DNA of 29,015 bases from a virus. Under the pieces are notes generated by a model. It was not told the origin of the DNA and did no database searches. It was given only the letters and a program-made list of their open reading frames with translations. Location: IMG/VR virus record IMGVR_UViG_3300030390_000428, positions 401-29,415 of that record; one strand, 5' to 3'. The translations under genes were made by a program, and so were the position numbers. Below are positions 3,062 to 20,560 of the stretch, piece by piece; positions within the stretch are counted from its first letter, which is position 1; every line of letters begins with the position of its first letter.

Positions 3062-3305
3062 TACAAAGAAAGTTTTATATAAAGGCAAGCACCCTGATTT
3101 AGTTAATGGTAAATCATACGGGTATGAAGATTACGCTAGGGTTGCAGGTGTTGGCTATAAGAGTCTCTATTCGAGGCTCTACGGAAAAAATGTCGTAACT
3201 GATATTGATCTTAGACCAATTAGAACGCCTGTTAATATTGGAAAGAGTAAACCTAAATGGGATGGTAACGACTTATCTCAAAAGTGGCTTAGTCGGTCTT
3301 TATGA
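3054..3305 (+). CDS. Unknown small basic protein
   Basis: The 83-aa product is basic. It contains a possible helix-turn-helix-like stretch, YEDYARVAGVGYKSLYSRLYG, at about residues 23-43, where a short helix, a glycine turn and a second helix can be imagined. I do not recognise the family. The ATG at 3054 is chosen because GGGGAGAG precedes it and it overlaps the previous gene by 8 bases. The end overlaps the NinB gene through an ATGA. By context it belongs to the replication and recombination operon and may be a DNA-binding accessory. Confidence 0.65.
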   Translation: MGSTKKVLYKGKHPDLVNGKSYGYEDYARVAGVGYKSLYSRLYGKNVVTDIDLRPIRTPVNIGKSKPKWDGNDLSQKWLSRSL

Positions 3306-3760
3306 CTGAGGGGGCATTTGTGAAGTTTAACAACAAAGATGAAGTAAATAAGAAGGTGAAGTTCCTAATTGAGGATATGCTCAACTGGGATTTCACCACC
3401 CCCCTTGCAGTTAAGTTAGAGCCATACCAGAACCCAAGAAGCCTGAACCAGAATGCTTTGTTACATATGTGGTGCAGAGAGATCGTAAAAGGCATGAAAA
3501 AGAAAGGTTTTGAGGTTTCAGAAGGTGACCCAGTAGAGGCATGGAAGCTCTGGCTAAAGCGCAGGTTCTTAGGCACAGATGATTTCAGGATAAGCAACAC
3601 CAAGATCAGCGGTCAGGTAAAACCCAGTAGCCGACTGGGAAAGGGCGATATGGTGCATTTTCTAGATCAGTGCTATCATTGGGCAAGTGAGCAGGGGATA
3701 AAACTAACCATACCGCGAGAAAGCGAATATGCGGAGTTAAAAAACCAACAGGAGCAATAG
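3302..3760 (+). CDS. ninB: NinB-like recombination protein (lambda Orf family)
   Basis: The 152-aa length and motifs fit the NinB/Orf family: the RSLNQNALLHMWCREI stretch near residues 47-62 (compare the RSL.QN.. core of lambda Orf) and the C-terminal pattern KGDMVHFLDQCYHWASEQGI, which covers the helix that precedes the family's end. Lambda Orf is a dimeric recombination mediator that can stand in for RecFOR by helping to load annealing or RecA proteins on SSB-coated DNA. That fits with the DUF1071 and SSB genes upstream and NinG downstream. The start uses ATGA overlap with the previous stop. Confidence 0.85.
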   Translation: MTEGAFVKFNNKDEVNKKVKFLIEDMLNWDFTTPLAVKLEPYQNPRSLNQNALLHMWCREIVKGMKKKGFEVSEGDPVEAWKLWLKRRFLGTDDFRISNTKISGQVKPSSRLGKGDMVHFLDQCYHWASEQGIKLTIPRESEYAELKNQQEQ

Positions 3761-12982: not shown

Positions 12983-13648
12983 ATGAGCGATACAATCATG
13001 GAAACCACAGAAGAAGCTGAGACTGAAACAGCGGCAGTAGAAACACAGGCAAAGACATTTTCACAAGTAGAGCTAGACCGAATCGTAGCTGATCGGATTG
13101 CTAGAGAACAGCGCAAGTTTGATAAGCGGCTAGGCGGCATTAACTTAGATGAAGCCAAAGAGCTACTTACTCAAAAGGAACAGGCTGAGATTGAGCAACA
13201 GAAACAGCGCGGAGAGTTCGATTCTATCTTGAAGAATACTGTCGAAAAGAAAGATGCAGTTATCAACAGTTACAAGTCTAGGTTGCAAGAGACGTTAATT
13301 GATGGACAGTTAACCAGTGCGGCTAGTCGGAATAACGCAGTTGATACAGCACAAGTAACTCAACTCTTAAAAGGCAAGACCAGACTTAATGATGATGGTG
13401 TTGTTGAGATTGTAGATAATAACGGAACACCTAGATATAATGATAAAGGTGATCTGTTATCTGTCGATGAGATGGTTACAGAATTTTTAACTGTTAACCC
13501 ACACTTTGTGCGCGCCTCTGGTGGCGGTGCAGGAAGCATGGGTAATACAGGTGGCTCTACTCCGAAGCCTCAATCGGTGGATTGGATGGTCGAGAATTGG
13601 AATAGCGGTGGCAAAGAAGCCTATACTGCTATGAAGAGGAAAGGCTAA
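12983..13648 (+). CDS. Capsid scaffolding protein
   Basis: The 221-aa protein has the scaffold signature: an acidic Thr/Glu-rich N-terminus, a long charged coiled-coil (QVELDRIVADRIAREQRKFD through the Gln/Glu-rich stretch, residues 28-90) and a Gly/Ser-rich segment (residues 179-192, GGGAGSMGNTGGST) before the C-terminal helix. It lies immediately upstream of the major capsid gene, the usual place. Scaffolds nucleate procapsid assembly by binding the capsid protein through the C-terminal helix and leave or are degraded. GAGG precedes the ATG. Confidence 0.8.
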   Translation: MSDTIMETTEEAETETAAVETQAKTFSQVELDRIVADRIAREQRKFDKRLGGINLDEAKELLTQKEQAEIEQQKQRGEFDSILKNTVEKKDAVINSYKSRLQETLIDGQLTSAASRNNAVDTAQVTQLLKGKTRLNDDGVVEIVDNNGTPRYNDKGDLLSVDEMVTEFLTVNPHFVRASGGGAGSMGNTGGSTPKPQSVDWMVENWNSGGKEAYTAMKRKG

Positions 13649-15321: not shown

Positions 15322-15743
15322 TGCAGGTCAATATCACGACCAATGCCAAGAAGGTACAAGAGGCATTAAAGCAGAAAGGCAAAGATGTTAAACAAAGCCT
15401 TAAGCGCGCGCTATCTATAACAGCCCAAGAGGGCATTAACATCATTGAGGATAGAACTCAGGATGGTGTTGGATACAAAGGTGGCGCTTTTAAAAGTTAT
15501 TCTGAGAAGTACGCAAAGTTTAGAAGAGATAAGGGTAGAGGTAAGAGAGTAGATTTACAGTTCTCTGGCAGAATGCTTGGCTCTATGACTAGCAAGGCAG
15601 ACAGTAAAAAGGCTACTATCTTTTTTACTAGAGCCGCAGAAGCTAAAAAGGCGGCTATGAATGACAAGACCAGACCATTCTTTGGCTTTAACAGGCAAGA
15701 AGAGAAACGGCTTGCAAATATATTCTTTAGGAACATCAAATGA
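15321..15743 (+). CDS. Tail-completion / virion morphogenesis protein (HK97 gp10- or gpS-like)
   Basis: This 140-aa basic protein has the layout of phage virion morphogenesis or gp10-type proteins: an N-terminal helix with paired lysines (KKVQEALKQKGKDVKQSLKRAL), a middle with RVDLQFSGRMLGSM (residues 76-89) and RPFFGFNRQEEKRLANIFF near the end (residues 118-136). Such proteins close the head-tail joint. TAATG couples it to the adaptor gene and ATGA to the tail terminator gene. Confidence 0.75.
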   Translation: MQVNITTNAKKVQEALKQKGKDVKQSLKRALSITAQEGINIIEDRTQDGVGYKGGAFKSYSEKYAKFRRDKGRGKRVDLQFSGRMLGSMTSKADSKKATIFFTRAAEAKKAAMNDKTRPFFGFNRQEEKRLANIFFRNIK

Positions 15744-16174
15744 GCATCAGAGAAGACATAGCGGTTAACTTGGTAGAAACACTACAGGACATTAGACAGC
15801 CTGTAAAAGTGAAGTATGTGACAAGAGAGCCGTTTGATTTTGATAAGCTATCGAATGCTCAATTTCCTGCTATACTTGTGCAGAGTTCAGACGAAGACAG
15901 GGAGAATGATACTGTCGGTGGCTCTATATCGCACAGGATGGCAACAATTAATTATCAGCTTGTATGCTACGTTAAAGGCAGTCAGATAGACACTGCTAGA
16001 AATGCTATCATAGAGGCTGTTGAAGAAAGTCTTGAAACTGACAAAACTAGAGGCGGTGTTGCCCTAGATACACAGATTATTAGTGTTGAGACAGACGAAG
16101 GTTCTATAGCACCGATTGGCGGTGTAATTTTAACTCTGCGTGTACTGTATAAGTATCAGCGCGGTACACTTTAA
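15740..16174 (+). CDS. Tail terminator protein
   Basis: The 144-aa protein has the mixed alpha/beta pattern of tail terminators: an N-terminal helix (IREDIAVNLVETLQDI), a strand with PAILVQSSDED, the central YQLVCYVKG strand, a helix (ARNAIIEAVEESLE), and a final strand (GVILTLRVLYKYQRG). Terminators cap the tail tube at the correct length and dock it to the head. The location immediately before the tail tube gene supports the call. Confidence 0.75.
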   Translation: MSIREDIAVNLVETLQDIRQPVKVKYVTREPFDFDKLSNAQFPAILVQSSDEDRENDTVGGSISHRMATINYQLVCYVKGSQIDTARNAIIEAVEESLETDKTRGGVALDTQIISVETDEGSIAPIGGVILTLRVLYKYQRGTL

Positions 16175-16192: not shown

Positions 16193-16594
16193 ATGGCAAC
16201 ATTCACAGGAAGCAGTGGCGTAGCAAAAATAGCATTAAACGGCGGCTCAGTCGCAGTAGTTGGCGAGGTTCGTTCATTTAGCATTGAAACATCAGCAGAC
16301 ACTATTGAAGATAGCGCAATCGGTGATTCAGCGCGTACATACAAAGCAGGATTAGAAAGCTCGACAGTAAGCCTTGAATGCTACTGGGATGATACTAATC
16401 CCGCACAGCTCGATTTAGATGGTAGGGCAGATGTTGATTTTGAAATCTATCCGACTGGTACTGGCACAGGTGAAAAATACTATACAGGTGGCGGTATTGT
16501 CACTAGCAAATCAATCAGCACTTCTTTTGATGGTATGGTTGAAGCTAGTTTTTCAATCCAAGTATCTGGAGCAGTAACAGAAGCAACAGCGTAA
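16193..16594 (+). CDS. Major tail tube protein
   Basis: The 133-aa product is Gly/Ser/Thr-rich and beta-strand-rich, with the typical tail tube look: VRSFSIETSADTIEDSAIGD, then YKAGLESSTVSLECYWDD, then a final strand pair near residues 108-127 (SKSISTSFDGMVEASFSIQV). It would polymerise into the tube through which DNA passes. GAGG precedes the ATG. It lies between the tail terminator and the tail-assembly chaperone genes. Confidence 0.85.
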   Translation: MATFTGSSGVAKIALNGGSVAVVGEVRSFSIETSADTIEDSAIGDSARTYKAGLESSTVSLECYWDDTNPAQLDLDGRADVDFEIYPTGTGTGEKYYTGGGIVTSKSISTSFDGMVEASFSIQVSGAVTEATA

Positions 16595-16611: not shown

Positions 16612-16959
16612 ATGGGACTAGCTAAAGAGTTACGCAAGAGAAGAGAAGTTAAGGCAAGAGAAGTTGTTGTGCCTGAGTGGGGTGACGATTCTGGAGCGTT
16701 CAAGTTGTATTGCAGACCAATAACCTGCAACGATATGAACCAACTACAGAAGAAGCACCCAAACTTCTTAAACAATACCACAATTGCCGCTATGGTCGAT
16801 CTGATTATTATGAAAGCAGAAGATCAAAGTGGCGATAGGTTGTTTACTGCGGCAGACGATAAGATCGAACTGATGGGCGAGCAGACAGATGTTATATCTG
16901 AAATTGCTAATCAAATGTTTGCTGAGATTGTGTCTGAGGAAGATTTAGCAAAAAACTAA
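16612..16959 (+). CDS. Tail assembly chaperone, short form (G-like)
   Basis: The 115-aa protein is the unshifted product: a basic N-terminus, VPEWGDDSGAFKLYCRPITCND, a helical middle, and EEDLAKN at the end. Together with its frameshifted longer form (see 16612-17105) it coats the tape measure protein during tail assembly, as gpG and gpGT do in lambda. It starts behind a GGGGAG ribosome site and lies directly between tail tube and tape measure genes. Confidence 0.85.
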   Translation: MGLAKELRKRREVKAREVVVPEWGDDSGAFKLYCRPITCNDMNQLQKKHPNFLNNTTIAAMVDLIIMKAEDQSGDRLFTAADDKIELMGEQTDVISEIANQMFAEIVSEEDLAKN

Positions 16960-17105
16960 AAACCGATCACTGGAGATTTAATTTAATATCTCTGGCTGAT
17001 CGGCTTCACATGACTATAGACGAAGTAGAGCAAATTAGCGTTACTGAGTTTAATGAGTGGATGGCATATTTCCAAATACTAAAGGATTCCGATTCTGATG
17101 GCTAA
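16612..17105 (+). CDS. Tail assembly chaperone, -1 frameshift form (GT-like)
   Basis: A -1 shift at 16950-16956 joins the short form to an otherwise startless frame, giving 164 residues. The extension reads through LISLADRLHMTIDEVEQIS and EFNEWMAYFQ, which matches the usual LADRLxMTxDE...EFxEWMAY pattern of gpT-type segments. It ends at a TAA at 17103-17105, overlapping the tape measure start by 8 bases. In lambda the GT form binds the tube protein and the G part the tape measure. The shift is inferred from sequence, not shown experimentally. Confidence 0.85.
16950..17003 (+). promoter_or_regulatory. Programmed -1 ribosomal frameshift signal
   Basis: The heptamer A AAA AAC (16950-16956) is in the 0 frame. 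After a 6-base spacer comes a stem: 16963-16977 pairs with 16988-17003, 15 pairs with one bulged C and two G-U pairs, around a 10-base loop. This is the classical geometry of a -1 slip with a stimulatory stem-loop. The 0-frame stop lies directly after the heptamer. Confidence 0.9.
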
Positions 17106-18930
17106 CCAAAATCTTAATATCACGATTAAAGCCTTTGATAAAACTAAGGGTGCATTAGGCTCTGCCGCTAAAGGTATCAAGGCTGTTGGCTCTTCTTTAT
17201 TTAGCATGAAAACTGCTTTAATAGGTGTTGCAGGTGTTGCAGGGTTTGGCTTGTTGGTGAGAAGTTCTTTAAATGCAACAGACTCCCTTGCAAAGACTTC
17301 AAGTAAAATCGGAACAACCACAGAAGCACTGGCTAAAATGCGTTTCGCGGCAGAGCTTACTGGTGTTGCCGCAACAACAATGGATATGGCTTTGCAGAGA
17401 TTCACTAGACGAACTGCTGAGGCGGCTAAAGGTACTGGTGAAGCTAAGGGTGCATTAAGAGAGCTAAACATAGATGCCAAAGCTATGCTCAAGCTACCTC
17501 TTGATGAGCAGATGAGAGAGTTAGCAAAGGCTTTTGAGGGCGTAGAAACACCCGCCGACAAGGTCAGGTTAGCTATGAAGCTGTTTGACTCCGAAGGTGT
17601 AGCCTTAGTTAATACGCTTGGACTTGGTGCAGATGCTTTAACTGAAATGATGAATGAGGCTGATGCTCTTGGTATTACTTTATCATCTTCTGCGGCAAAG
17701 GGTGTAGAAGATGCTAACGATTCATTTACCCGCCTTAAAACACTTCTAAAGGGATTGACAGACCAAACAGTAGCTAAACTAGCCCCTGCGCTACAGGCTG
17801 TTACAGACAAACTGGTTGCGTTTGGTAAAGAAGCGGCAGGTGGTGATTTTGAAAAGATTGGTGCGACTATAGCCAACAAGATTATTGAAGGCTTTAAAAA
17901 GATAGTTGTAGTTTTCCAAAGCATTTTAAATGTTATTGGTGAAACTGCACATACTATAAAGCAAGTCTATAGAAATATATTTAGCAGTGCTGATACAAAG
18001 AAAAACGAGCTAGAATTGGAGAGGTTGAAGAAAGCCGCCTTCAAAGCAGGAATATCAATTGCTAAGGCTCTTGACCCTGATTCTAATTATATAGAAAGAC
18101 TATCAGATGCTAATCGAGAAATAGTTTTAAATATCAATAGAATACAGGGTGAACTTAATAGAATTAGTGCTGTTGAAACTGAGGAATATTCCCCTTTTGA
18201 CTTCTCTGATTTGCTTGCACAGTTAAACGAAGTGCAACAGGCTGTAGGTTCTGCAGTCCCAGACTTTCCCGAAATAAAACCAGATATAACTGGTGTTAAT
18301 AATGCGAAAGAAGCATTCAAGCAATGGTCAGATGCTATAGAGCCAGTAGATTCTCAACTGCAAAGTCTTGGTGTTAAAACTATGGATACTTTTACAAACT
18401 CTATCTCTAGCGCGATTCAGGGGACAGCTAAATTAAGCGATTCTTTCAAGGCTATGGCACTGAATGTAGTTGACAGCTTAACTAAAATGCTTGTGCAGTA
18501 TTACATTACCAAGCCTCTGTTTGATATGTTTACTAGTTCATTTGGCGGCACATCTGCTACACCTTCACAATTGCCTATGGGGTCTACAGATTTTCAGAGT
18601 GGTTTTAATCCACAGTTTATAGGTAATGGTGGTGGGTTTACTGGTCACGGCTCAAGAACAGGCGGCTTAGATGGTAAAGGCGGGTTTCAGGCTATGCTCC
18701 ACCCTAACGAGACAGTTATTGACCACACAAAGCCAAGTCGATCAATGCGTTCATCAGGCGGTCAAAGCATTGTGGTTAATCAAACTATAAACCTGACAAC
18801 TGGCATTCAATCTACAGTTAGAGCAGAGATACAGAGCATGATGCCACAAATTAACGAATCAACTAAGGCGGCTGTTGCTGAGGCAAGGTCGAGAGGCGGT
18901 AGCTACAGCAAAGCCCTGCTAGGAGTCTAA
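17098..18930 (+). CDS. Tail tape measure protein
   Basis: The 610-aa protein has an Ala/Lys-rich helical N-terminus (NITIKAFDKTKGALGSAAKGI), a hydrophobic stretch (MKTALIGVAGVAGFGLLV), long helical repeats, and a C-terminal part with DSFKAMALNVVDSLTKMLVQYYITKPLF and GGLDGKGGFQAMLHPNETVID, typical of lambda-type tape measures. The length sets the tail at roughly 90 nm using the usual 0.15 nm per residue. It overlaps the frameshifted chaperone by 8 bases and sits at the expected place. Confidence 0.92.
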   Translation: MANQNLNITIKAFDKTKGALGSAAKGIKAVGSSLFSMKTALIGVAGVAGFGLLVRSSLNATDSLAKTSSKIGTTTEALAKMRFAAELTGVAATTMDMALQRFTRRTAEAAKGTGEAKGALRELNIDAKAMLKLPLDEQMRELAKAFEGVETPADKVRLAMKLFDSEGVALVNTLGLGADALTEMMNEADALGITLSSSAAKGVEDANDSFTRLKTLLKGLTDQTVAKLAPALQAVTDKLVAFGKEAAGGDFEKIGATIANKIIEGFKKIVVVFQSILNVIGETAHTIKQVYRNIFSSADTKKNELELERLKKAAFKAGISIAKALDPDSNYIERLSDANREIVLNINRIQGELNRISAVETEEYSPFDFSDLLAQLNEVQQAVGSAVPDFPEIKPDITGVNNAKEAFKQWSDAIEPVDSQLQSLGVKTMDTFTNSISSAIQGTAKLSDSFKAMALNVVDSLTKMLVQYYITKPLFDMFTSSFGGTSATPSQLPMGSTDFQSGFNPQFIGNGGGFTGHGSRTGGLDGKGGFQAMLHPNETVIDHTKPSRSMRSSGGQSIVVNQTINLTTGIQSTVRAEIQSMMPQINESTKAAVAEARSRGGSYSKALLGV

Positions 18931-19500
18931 ATGTCACTATCATTCCCTTTAACATTTCCAAGCGTAGGTATCTCGAATTTTGACTTGCGTTATAGGAAAT
19001 CAGTTGCAGTTTCAGAGTCGCCATTTACCTACGCACAGCAAGTGCATGATTTTGGCGGCGGTAGATGGGAGGCAGAGGTATCGTTAGCACCTTTAACATT
19101 TGCCGAGGCTAGAAGTATAGATGCATTTTTTATTGGCTTAGAAGGGCGAAAAGGCACGTTTTTAATGGGTCACCCTTTACACACAGCCAGTGGTTCTGCT
19201 GATGTTGATAATGAGTCTATAGGGGCATTTAATATAGATTTAGATGGCGCAGATGCATTTCCCGCAGGGACTTATTTTTCAATTGCCAATCATCTTTATA
19301 TGCTGACCTCTGCAAAAGCATCAGGAAGCAATCAGTCTGTAGAGATACAGCCCCCATTACGAACAGATACTACCACTAACACTAGCTTGGATTTTACTAA
19401 TCCTCTCGGAGTATGGCGACTATCCACTAACGATGTGAATAGTCACACAGATGTGAATGGCTTATTCTATTATTCATTTTCTTGCACTGAGGCTATCTAA
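18931..19500 (+). CDS. Distal tail / minor tail protein
   Basis: The 189-aa beta-rich protein has a pattern familiar from minor tail proteins downstream of the tape measure: LTFPSVGISNFDLRYR, then GGGRWEAEVSLAPLTFAEAR, then FLMGHPLHT (residues 77-85). It begins immediately after the tape measure stop. It likely forms the distal-tail ring that joins the tube to the hub. The precise family name is uncertain. Confidence 0.7.
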   Translation: MSLSFPLTFPSVGISNFDLRYRKSVAVSESPFTYAQQVHDFGGGRWEAEVSLAPLTFAEARSIDAFFIGLEGRKGTFLMGHPLHTASGSADVDNESIGAFNIDLDGADAFPAGTYFSIANHLYMLTSAKASGSNQSVEIQPPLRTDTTTNTSLDFTNPLGVWRLSTNDVNSHTDVNGLFYYSFSCTEAI

Positions 19501-20102
19501 TGTCCAGAACTTTAGCCACAGCAATGGAAGAAGCTATTACCGCAGATTTAGTGCGCCCAGTATTCTTAGTAGATTTAATGTTTTCGTCTGCAATCTACCT
19601 TTCAACTATTATCGGTGAAACTGTCTACAATAATGGTTCAGGTGATAACAGTTATTATGGAGTTGGCGAGCTTTTGAAAATGTCACCTGTAGACGAAGTC
19701 CAAGACTTAGGCGCGGCAGGAATAACACTAAATCTTTCAGGCATAAACGGAACAGAGTTATTGAATAAGGCTTTAACGGAAGATTATCAAGGTAAAACTG
19801 TTACTATTAGGCTCGGTGCTTTAGATGCACAAGGAGCATTGGTTAATAATCCTATAGTAATATTTGCAGGTTTTATGGATGTTATGTCATTAAGTGAAGG
19901 CGGCGGTACTGCTGTTATACAGCTAACAGTAGAAAATAAACTAATACGCCTAGATAAAACAAATGTTCGGAGATACACAAGCCAAGATCAGAGGGCTGTA
20001 CACTCGACAGATAAGGGTTTCGATTACGTCACAAATATAGCTAACAAAGATATAACATGGGGCGCACAAACAGAAAAGGCGGCAAAACAACAACTACAAT
20101 AG
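19500..20102 (+). CDS. Tail hub-type protein (DUF2163-like)
   Basis: This 200-aa protein matches a set I associate with DUF2163-like hub proteins: ADLVRPVFLVDLMF, then GITLNLSGINGTELLNKALTEDYQGK, then TVENKLIRLDKTNVRRYTSQDQ and GFDYVTNIANKDITWG near the end. It joins the distal tail to the tip protein. TAATG couples it to the gene before. It would normally be followed by a tail peptidase gene, but here a GNAT-fold gene follows. Confidence 0.7.
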   Translation: MSRTLATAMEEAITADLVRPVFLVDLMFSSAIYLSTIIGETVYNNGSGDNSYYGVGELLKMSPVDEVQDLGAAGITLNLSGINGTELLNKALTEDYQGKTVTIRLGALDAQGALVNNPIVIFAGFMDVMSLSEGGGTAVIQLTVENKLIRLDKTNVRRYTSQDQRAVHSTDKGFDYVTNIANKDITWGAQTEKAAKQQLQ

Positions 20103-20110
20103 GGGGCAAT

Positions 20111-20560
20111 ATGAAGCTACAAGAAGAAGCATTAACAGAAATTTGTGAGGATATAAAGCCACTAATTCAAATGCACTGGGAACAAGTAGCCCTTAACAAA
20201 GATAAAATTAAACTTAATCCAGATTGGGATGAGTATCACAGACTGTATAACGCAGGAAACTTAAAAATATATACAGCCCGCAAAGAGCATGAACTGGTTG
20301 GTTATTTTATCGTAGCGGTAGGAAAAAACATCCACTATAAAGATCATTTGTTTGCTAATTGCGATATTATATACGTGAAGCCAGACAGTAGAGCAGGGAT
20401 GACGGGTTACAAATTGATTAATTTTGCGACAGCAGAATTGCAAAAAATAGGTGTTTCGGTTTTAAACATAAACACTAAAACGCACTTACCTTTTGATAAG
20501 CTACTATTAAGAATGAAGTTCGGGCTTATAGAAAGATTATATTCTAAATTTATAGGTTAA
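20111..20560 (+). CDS. GNAT-fold acetyltransferase-like protein in the tail module
   Basis: The 149-aa product follows the GNAT order. Helical segments (LTEICEDIKPLIQMHWEQVA) are followed by YTARKEHELVGYFIVAV (strands 2-4), CDIIYVKPDSRAGMTGYKLINFA, which is the acetyl-CoA loop region with a degenerate R-x-x-G-x-G/A-like motif (SRAGMTGYKL), and a C-terminal strand-helix pair. ATG at 20111 has an AGGGGG site; the upstream frame start would overlap the hub gene. Such genes occur in tail or virion modules of several phage groups; the target is unknown. Confidence 0.7.
   Translation: MKLQEEALTEICEDIKPLIQMHWEQVALNKDKIKLNPDWDEYHRLYNAGNLKIYTARKEHELVGYFIVAVGKNIHYKDHLFANCDIIYVKPDSRAGMTGYKLINFATAELQKIGVSVLNINTKTHLPFDKLLLRMKFGLIERLYSKFIG

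Follow-up and report, generated by a model that had tools for sequence, protein, structure and literature searches.

Does the short gene in front of the tape measure gene of this uncultured marine tailed phage encode one product or, through a change of reading frame at its end, two? In phage lambda, the tape measure protein is bound by gpG and by gpGT, a frameshift product made at a low level, whose T part binds the tail tube protein; this G/GT arrangement is widely conserved among long-tailed phages (PMC5009743). The DNA analysed here, hereafter the window, comprises 29,015 nucleotides (positions 401 to 29,415 of IMG/VR record IMGVR_UViG_3300030390_000428). A preliminary description of the window had proposed a complete -1 frameshift cassette with an unlisted GT-type chaperone extension, and the heptamer, the adjacent stop, the hairpin after 6 nt and the 49-codon -1 frame were all found where it had placed them (Table 1). 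As set out below, the locus is almost certainly, as judged from its sequence and that of its relatives, a lambda-type G/GT programmed -1 ribosomal frameshift site.

Anatomy of the Putative Frameshift Site

The 3' end of the chaperone gene reads GCA AAA AAC TAA, with the heptamer in the phase needed for a -1 shift. The -1 frame is entered at the CTA codon at 16956 and, in the window translation, runs through 49 open codons to TAA at 17103-17105, so that the end of the extension overlaps the tape measure ATG at 17098. The heptamer alone is weak evidence, because 33 genes of the window contain 44 in-frame X_XXY_YYZ heptamers, of which only the one at 16950-16956 lies directly before a stop. Chance is nevertheless untenable as an explanation, since the whole arrangement is kept in 80 of 80 relatives (the best 80 of 262). 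Elsewhere in the window, a second in-frame A AAA AAC (3739-3745) lies 15 nt short of the end of gene 3302-3760, probably by chance.

Table 1. Features of the predicted G/GT locus and its neighboring tail genes (window coordinates).
Feature	Position	Strand	Evidence or remark
Tail terminator	15740..16174	+	phrog_4204, E 1.4e-7; Pfam Phage_tail_terminator_7, E 1.2e-6
Major tail tube protein	16193..16594	+	phrog_10528, E 1e-15
0-frame tail assembly chaperone (gpG equivalent), 115 aa	16612..16959	+	phrog_344, AlphaFold/PDB match, gene position
GAGG, Shine-Dalgarno-like, candidate upstream stimulator	16936..16939	+	10 nt before heptamer in window, 7 nt in most relatives
Slippery heptamer A AAA AAC	16950..16956	+	Conserved in relatives
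0-frame stop (TAA) abutting heptamer	16957..16959	+	Conserved adjacency
-1 frame extension (gpT equivalent), 49 aa plus stop	16956..17105	+	phrog_337, codon-position variability, uninterrupted in relatives
Probable stimulatory RNA hairpin, 15 bp, one bulge	16963..17003 (arms 16963-16977, 16988-17003)	+	Fold, compensatory changes, synonymous shuffles
Tail tape measure protein	17098..18930	+	phrog_9483, E 2.8e-59; Pfam Tape_meas_lam_C, E 3.5e-6

Protein Families and Gene Neighborhood

Profile searches assigned both parts of the putative fusion to families expected of a G/GT pair. The 0-frame protein matched the phrog_344 tail assembly chaperones (E 4.8e-7), and the extension, whose GT-type identity had been proposed from its letters, matched the phrog_337 tail proteins (E 2.7e-5 for the window), as did 18 of the 21 extension members. 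An AlphaFold model of the 0-frame protein, predicted with the window and IMG/VR sequences as the only input rows, was of moderate confidence (pLDDT 64); its top PDB match was the HK97 tail assembly chaperone 2OB9 (probability 1.00, E 0.014), and its viral structure matches include named tail assembly chaperones. In Pfam, Phage_tail_T (E 0.019 on the extension, below the cut-off) and Phage_tail_APC were matched below threshold, and the extension had sub-threshold matches only. The NCBIfam search gave no match, and a PDB sequence search with the chaperone profile returned nothing relevant.

The gene order also corresponds to that of a G/GT system: terminator, tail tube, G, T, and tape measure follow one another, with the terminase, portal, and major head protein upstream, and the chaperone thus lies between the major tail protein and the tape measure. 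Further into the tail module, an acetyltransferase-like ORF (20057-20560; phrog_1249, E 1.3e-9) overlaps the end of the tail gene at 19500-20102, although its true start may be further downstream. The protein encoded at 25125-26039 matches tail fibre and tail spike C-termini in its C-terminal half (phrog_7121, E 1.2e-29), and its N-terminal part is repetitive and rich in Thr, Val, and Ser.

Conservation in Relatives and Sister Clades

In the window's clade, sampled as the best 80 of 262 IMG/VR relatives, each of the 80 sequences has TAA or TGA immediately preceded by A AAA AAC or G GGA AAC, the latter in 17 of the 39 distinct ones. The -1 frame is open for 47-51 codons in each of the 80. A DNA similarity search against cultured phages gave no match, and protein searches were therefore used. 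Roseobacter phages (CRP-8xx and CRP-406) and Pelagibacter phage HTVC026P have a homologous chaperone (~40% identity), an identical AAAAAAC-TAA junction, and a homologous -1 extension. Two sister clades were then gathered using the proteins of Roseobacter phage CRP-821 and Pelagibacter phage HTVC026P, and 83/83 and 81/81 of their members (164/164) have A AAA AAC with the stop immediately behind it. Across all 245 sequences examined, TAA or TGA directly follows the heptamer, a strictness of adjacency that the preliminary description had missed.

Interruption of the -1 frame in relatives, which would speak against a translated extension, was seen in none of the 80 clade relatives and none of the 164 sister-clade sequences. 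The three shortest sister-clade extensions (30, 36, and 41 codons) are just as long as the retrieved locus allows, and we infer that they end at that border and not at a stop. Heterozygosity in the extension, by -1 codon position, is 0.19, 0.15, and 0.39. Substitutions thus fall mostly at third positions, which is the pattern of a translated frame and shows, at the level of sequence variation, that the -1 frame is under purifying constraint.

The cultured relatives that were checked lack the T extension in their annotation, as the public records of Roseobacter phages CRP-821, CRP-406, and CRP-811 and Pelagibacter phage HTVC026P (L095, L096, L097, L098) give the short chaperone only and leave the ~140-170 nt before the tape measure empty. 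The terms "complete" and "unlisted" in the preliminary description are apt for the state of annotation, but not as a claim of novelty.

It is worth noting that the two neighboring genes can differ sharply in their relatedness to the window (16612-18930). In contig IMGVR_UViG_3300017742_000977 (L004/L088), the chaperone is 97% identical and the adjacent tape measure only ~41%, while L045/L081 show the reverse pattern (chaperone 75%, tape measure 86%). These identity contrasts suggest recombination, or very uneven divergence, at the chaperone/tape measure border.

A Clade-Specific Hairpin Downstream of the Heptamer

The hairpin that begins 6 nt after the heptamer has a 10-nt loop and a bulged C at 16996. 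Folding of 16957-17010 gave a minimum free energy of -19.5 kcal/mol (z -5.95), with none of 200 dinucleotide shuffles as stable, and only 0.3% of plus-strand 54-mers in the window fold as well; when 178 nt are folded, the hairpin also appears in the centroid structure. It is not a by-product of coding, since it is stable relative to codon shuffles that keep the -1 amino acids, with z -4.8 in the window, a mean z of -4.4 over 39 distinct sequences, and a mean z of -3.2 with a stricter clade-derived codon pool. Rfam gave only a sub-threshold snoRNA match attributable to chance. The strongest local plus-strand RNA fold of the window lies elsewhere, at 13489-13548 (-26 kcal/mol in 54 nt), within the gene at 12983-13648 and just upstream of the major head protein.

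Comparison among relatives bore out the 15-bp stem that had been noted from the window, its arms being kept with compensatory changes. With the window's structure as reference, 84% of cells are paired, while sliding the partners leaves no more than 44.5% paired, and 26 cells are changed on both sides compared with 10.7 expected in shuffles, although such counts overstate the number of independent events because the shuffle controls correct only partly for shared ancestry. The outer seven pairs have one common register. The inner helix is shifted by one base between sequences with A AAA AAC and those with G GGA AAC, and 90% and 91% of cells, respectively, are paired when each group is read in its own register. 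For this reason, RNAalifold retained just 5 pairs on the pooled alignment, a discrepancy that is resolved by splitting the alignment by heptamer type. At the closing pair 16963-17003, 24 of 37 sequences have C-G and 13 have G-C, and this swap and the register change are the strongest single items of covariation. Taken together, the sequence comparisons show that the hairpin is evolutionarily maintained in the window's clade, and its stability, its spacing, and its compensatory pairs are those of a hairpin-stimulated frameshift signal in the style of dnaX or IS3. The 6-nt spacer lies inside the range of 5-8 nt at which stimulatory structures usually begin (PMC4066793).

By contrast, the same stretch in the sister clades carries no hairpin signal (mean z -0.5 and -0.2). 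The stem-loop component of the proposed cassette is thus present and conserved, but it is specific to the window's clade, and it is not indispensable to the system, as the sister clades keep the slip site without it. Their lack of a hairpin leaves some room for the reading that the frameshift is real and the hairpin serves something else, such as RNA processing, mRNA stability, or shielding of the tape measure start. We consider this improbable, given that the whole clade keeps a distance of ~6 nt between the heptamer and the hairpin, that the stem has undergone compensatory change, that a terminator scan found no terminator-like site, and that the tape measure start is ~95 nt further on.

A second candidate stimulator, also missed in the preliminary description, is located upstream. 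In the window's clade, 30 of 31 distinct sequences, which are related to each other, have GAGG at a distance of 7 or 10 nt upstream of the heptamer. In the Roseobacter-phage clade, 32 of 34 have the motif at 7 nt; it is absent in the Pelagibacter-phage clade. Because its signal against synonymous shuffles is weak (mean z -0.7 and -0.4), a dnaX-like stimulatory role for GAGG is offered as a suggestion only.

Alternative Routes to the T Product

Two routes to a T product that dispense with ribosomal frameshifting were considered and found unlikely, on the sequences with G GGA AAC and on the distribution of ATG codons. The fusion might arise by slippage of RNA polymerase on the A run, given the A6 run in the window and the longer A9 run before the chaperone stop in the Pelagibacter-phage clade (L180-L259; GTAAAAAAAAAC at ~2763-2776 in locus L096). 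The G GGA AAC sequences have no homopolymer at the same place, however, and a downstream hairpin with ribosomal spacing and maintained pairing fits ribosomes, so that we give transcriptional slippage very little credence for the window; in the Pelagibacter-phage clade, it is a possible alternative route because the A run is longer there. It is equally hard to credit that T is a separate small gene begun at an internal start codon of the -1 frame: the window does have an ATG at extension codon 19, and relatives have start-like codons at several positions, but no ATG position is common to all (33/45 have one at codon 8, 18/45 at codon 19, and 26/45 at codon 27), such a start would remove the first part of the extension, where conservation already begins at the slip codon, and the invariant heptamer-stop pair would be left unexplained.

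Proposed Mechanism and Comparison with Known Systems

We therefore favor ribosomal frameshifting, in which a small fraction of ribosomes very probably slips at the end of the chaperone gene and makes a longer partner protein. Most ribosomes would terminate at TAA 16957 after making G, the 115-aa chaperone, while in a minority the tRNAs would move back by one base and re-pair on A AAA AAC, and translation would continue for 49 codons in the -1 frame, yielding a G-T fusion. By analogy with lambda, the T part of this fusion is expected to join the complex of tape measure and G to the tail tube protein. The hairpin probably increases the slip rate through ribosome pausing or pulling, and the upstream GAGG may add to the slip, as in dnaX. 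With the stop abutting the heptamer, slipping and termination would be direct alternatives. In E. coli, which may not be the host of this phage, A AAA AAC promotes slippage far less than A AAA AAG does (PMC5009743), and a stimulator would thus be a sensible addition.

The locus resembles the lambda G/GT genes and their HK97-like siphophage homologs in its position between tail tube and tape measure, its short chaperone with a -1 extension, the heptamer at the end of G, the phrog_344 and phrog_337 families, and the fold match to 2OB9; it differs from them in that A AAA AAC directly abuts the stop. Frameshifting of 6-7% has been measured for two HK97-like chaperone genes (PMC3711429). The same two heptamers, serving the same protein pair, are reported at the G-T sites of haloarchaeal viruses, with G GGA AAC in HCTV-1 and A AAA AAC in HCTV-2 (PMC5009743), although the hosts are not related. 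The conserved downstream hairpin sets the window apart from the Roseobacter and Pelagibacter phages, in which none is conserved at the same place, and from most surveyed phage clusters, as a hairpin was possibly relevant in only one of five (PMC4066793). This survey agrees with the earlier remark that many phage G-T sites lack a convincing stem. In its working, the predicted signal would also be like that of E. coli dnaX, which combines an upstream Shine-Dalgarno-like motif (in the window, a candidate stimulator), an A-rich heptamer, and a downstream hairpin; dnaX is a different gene and not a homolog, its heptamer is A AAA AAG, and its frameshift product is the shorter one.

Implications

Overall, sequence comparison indicates that this uncultured marine tailed phage carries a real and conserved G/GT cassette of a kind already known, to which are added a clade-specific, unusually well conserved hairpin and a heptamer that strictly abuts the stop. 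The known picture of how G/GT pairs arise is unchanged. More speculatively, the stop may be a working part of the G/GT switch in a wide group of marine phages, with the heptamer held against it to let slippage compete with slow termination; a hairpin that sets the ratio would be an addition of the window's clade, and the Pelagibacter and Roseobacter sister clades would manage without one. We regard this as possible rather than probable; if true, the G:GT ratio would be tuned by release factors together with a clade-specific RNA structure. Sister clades that share the slip site but differ in having a hairpin provide a clean comparative set for the contribution of the hairpin, and the finding adds an unannotated, predicted T-domain product for this marine phage group.
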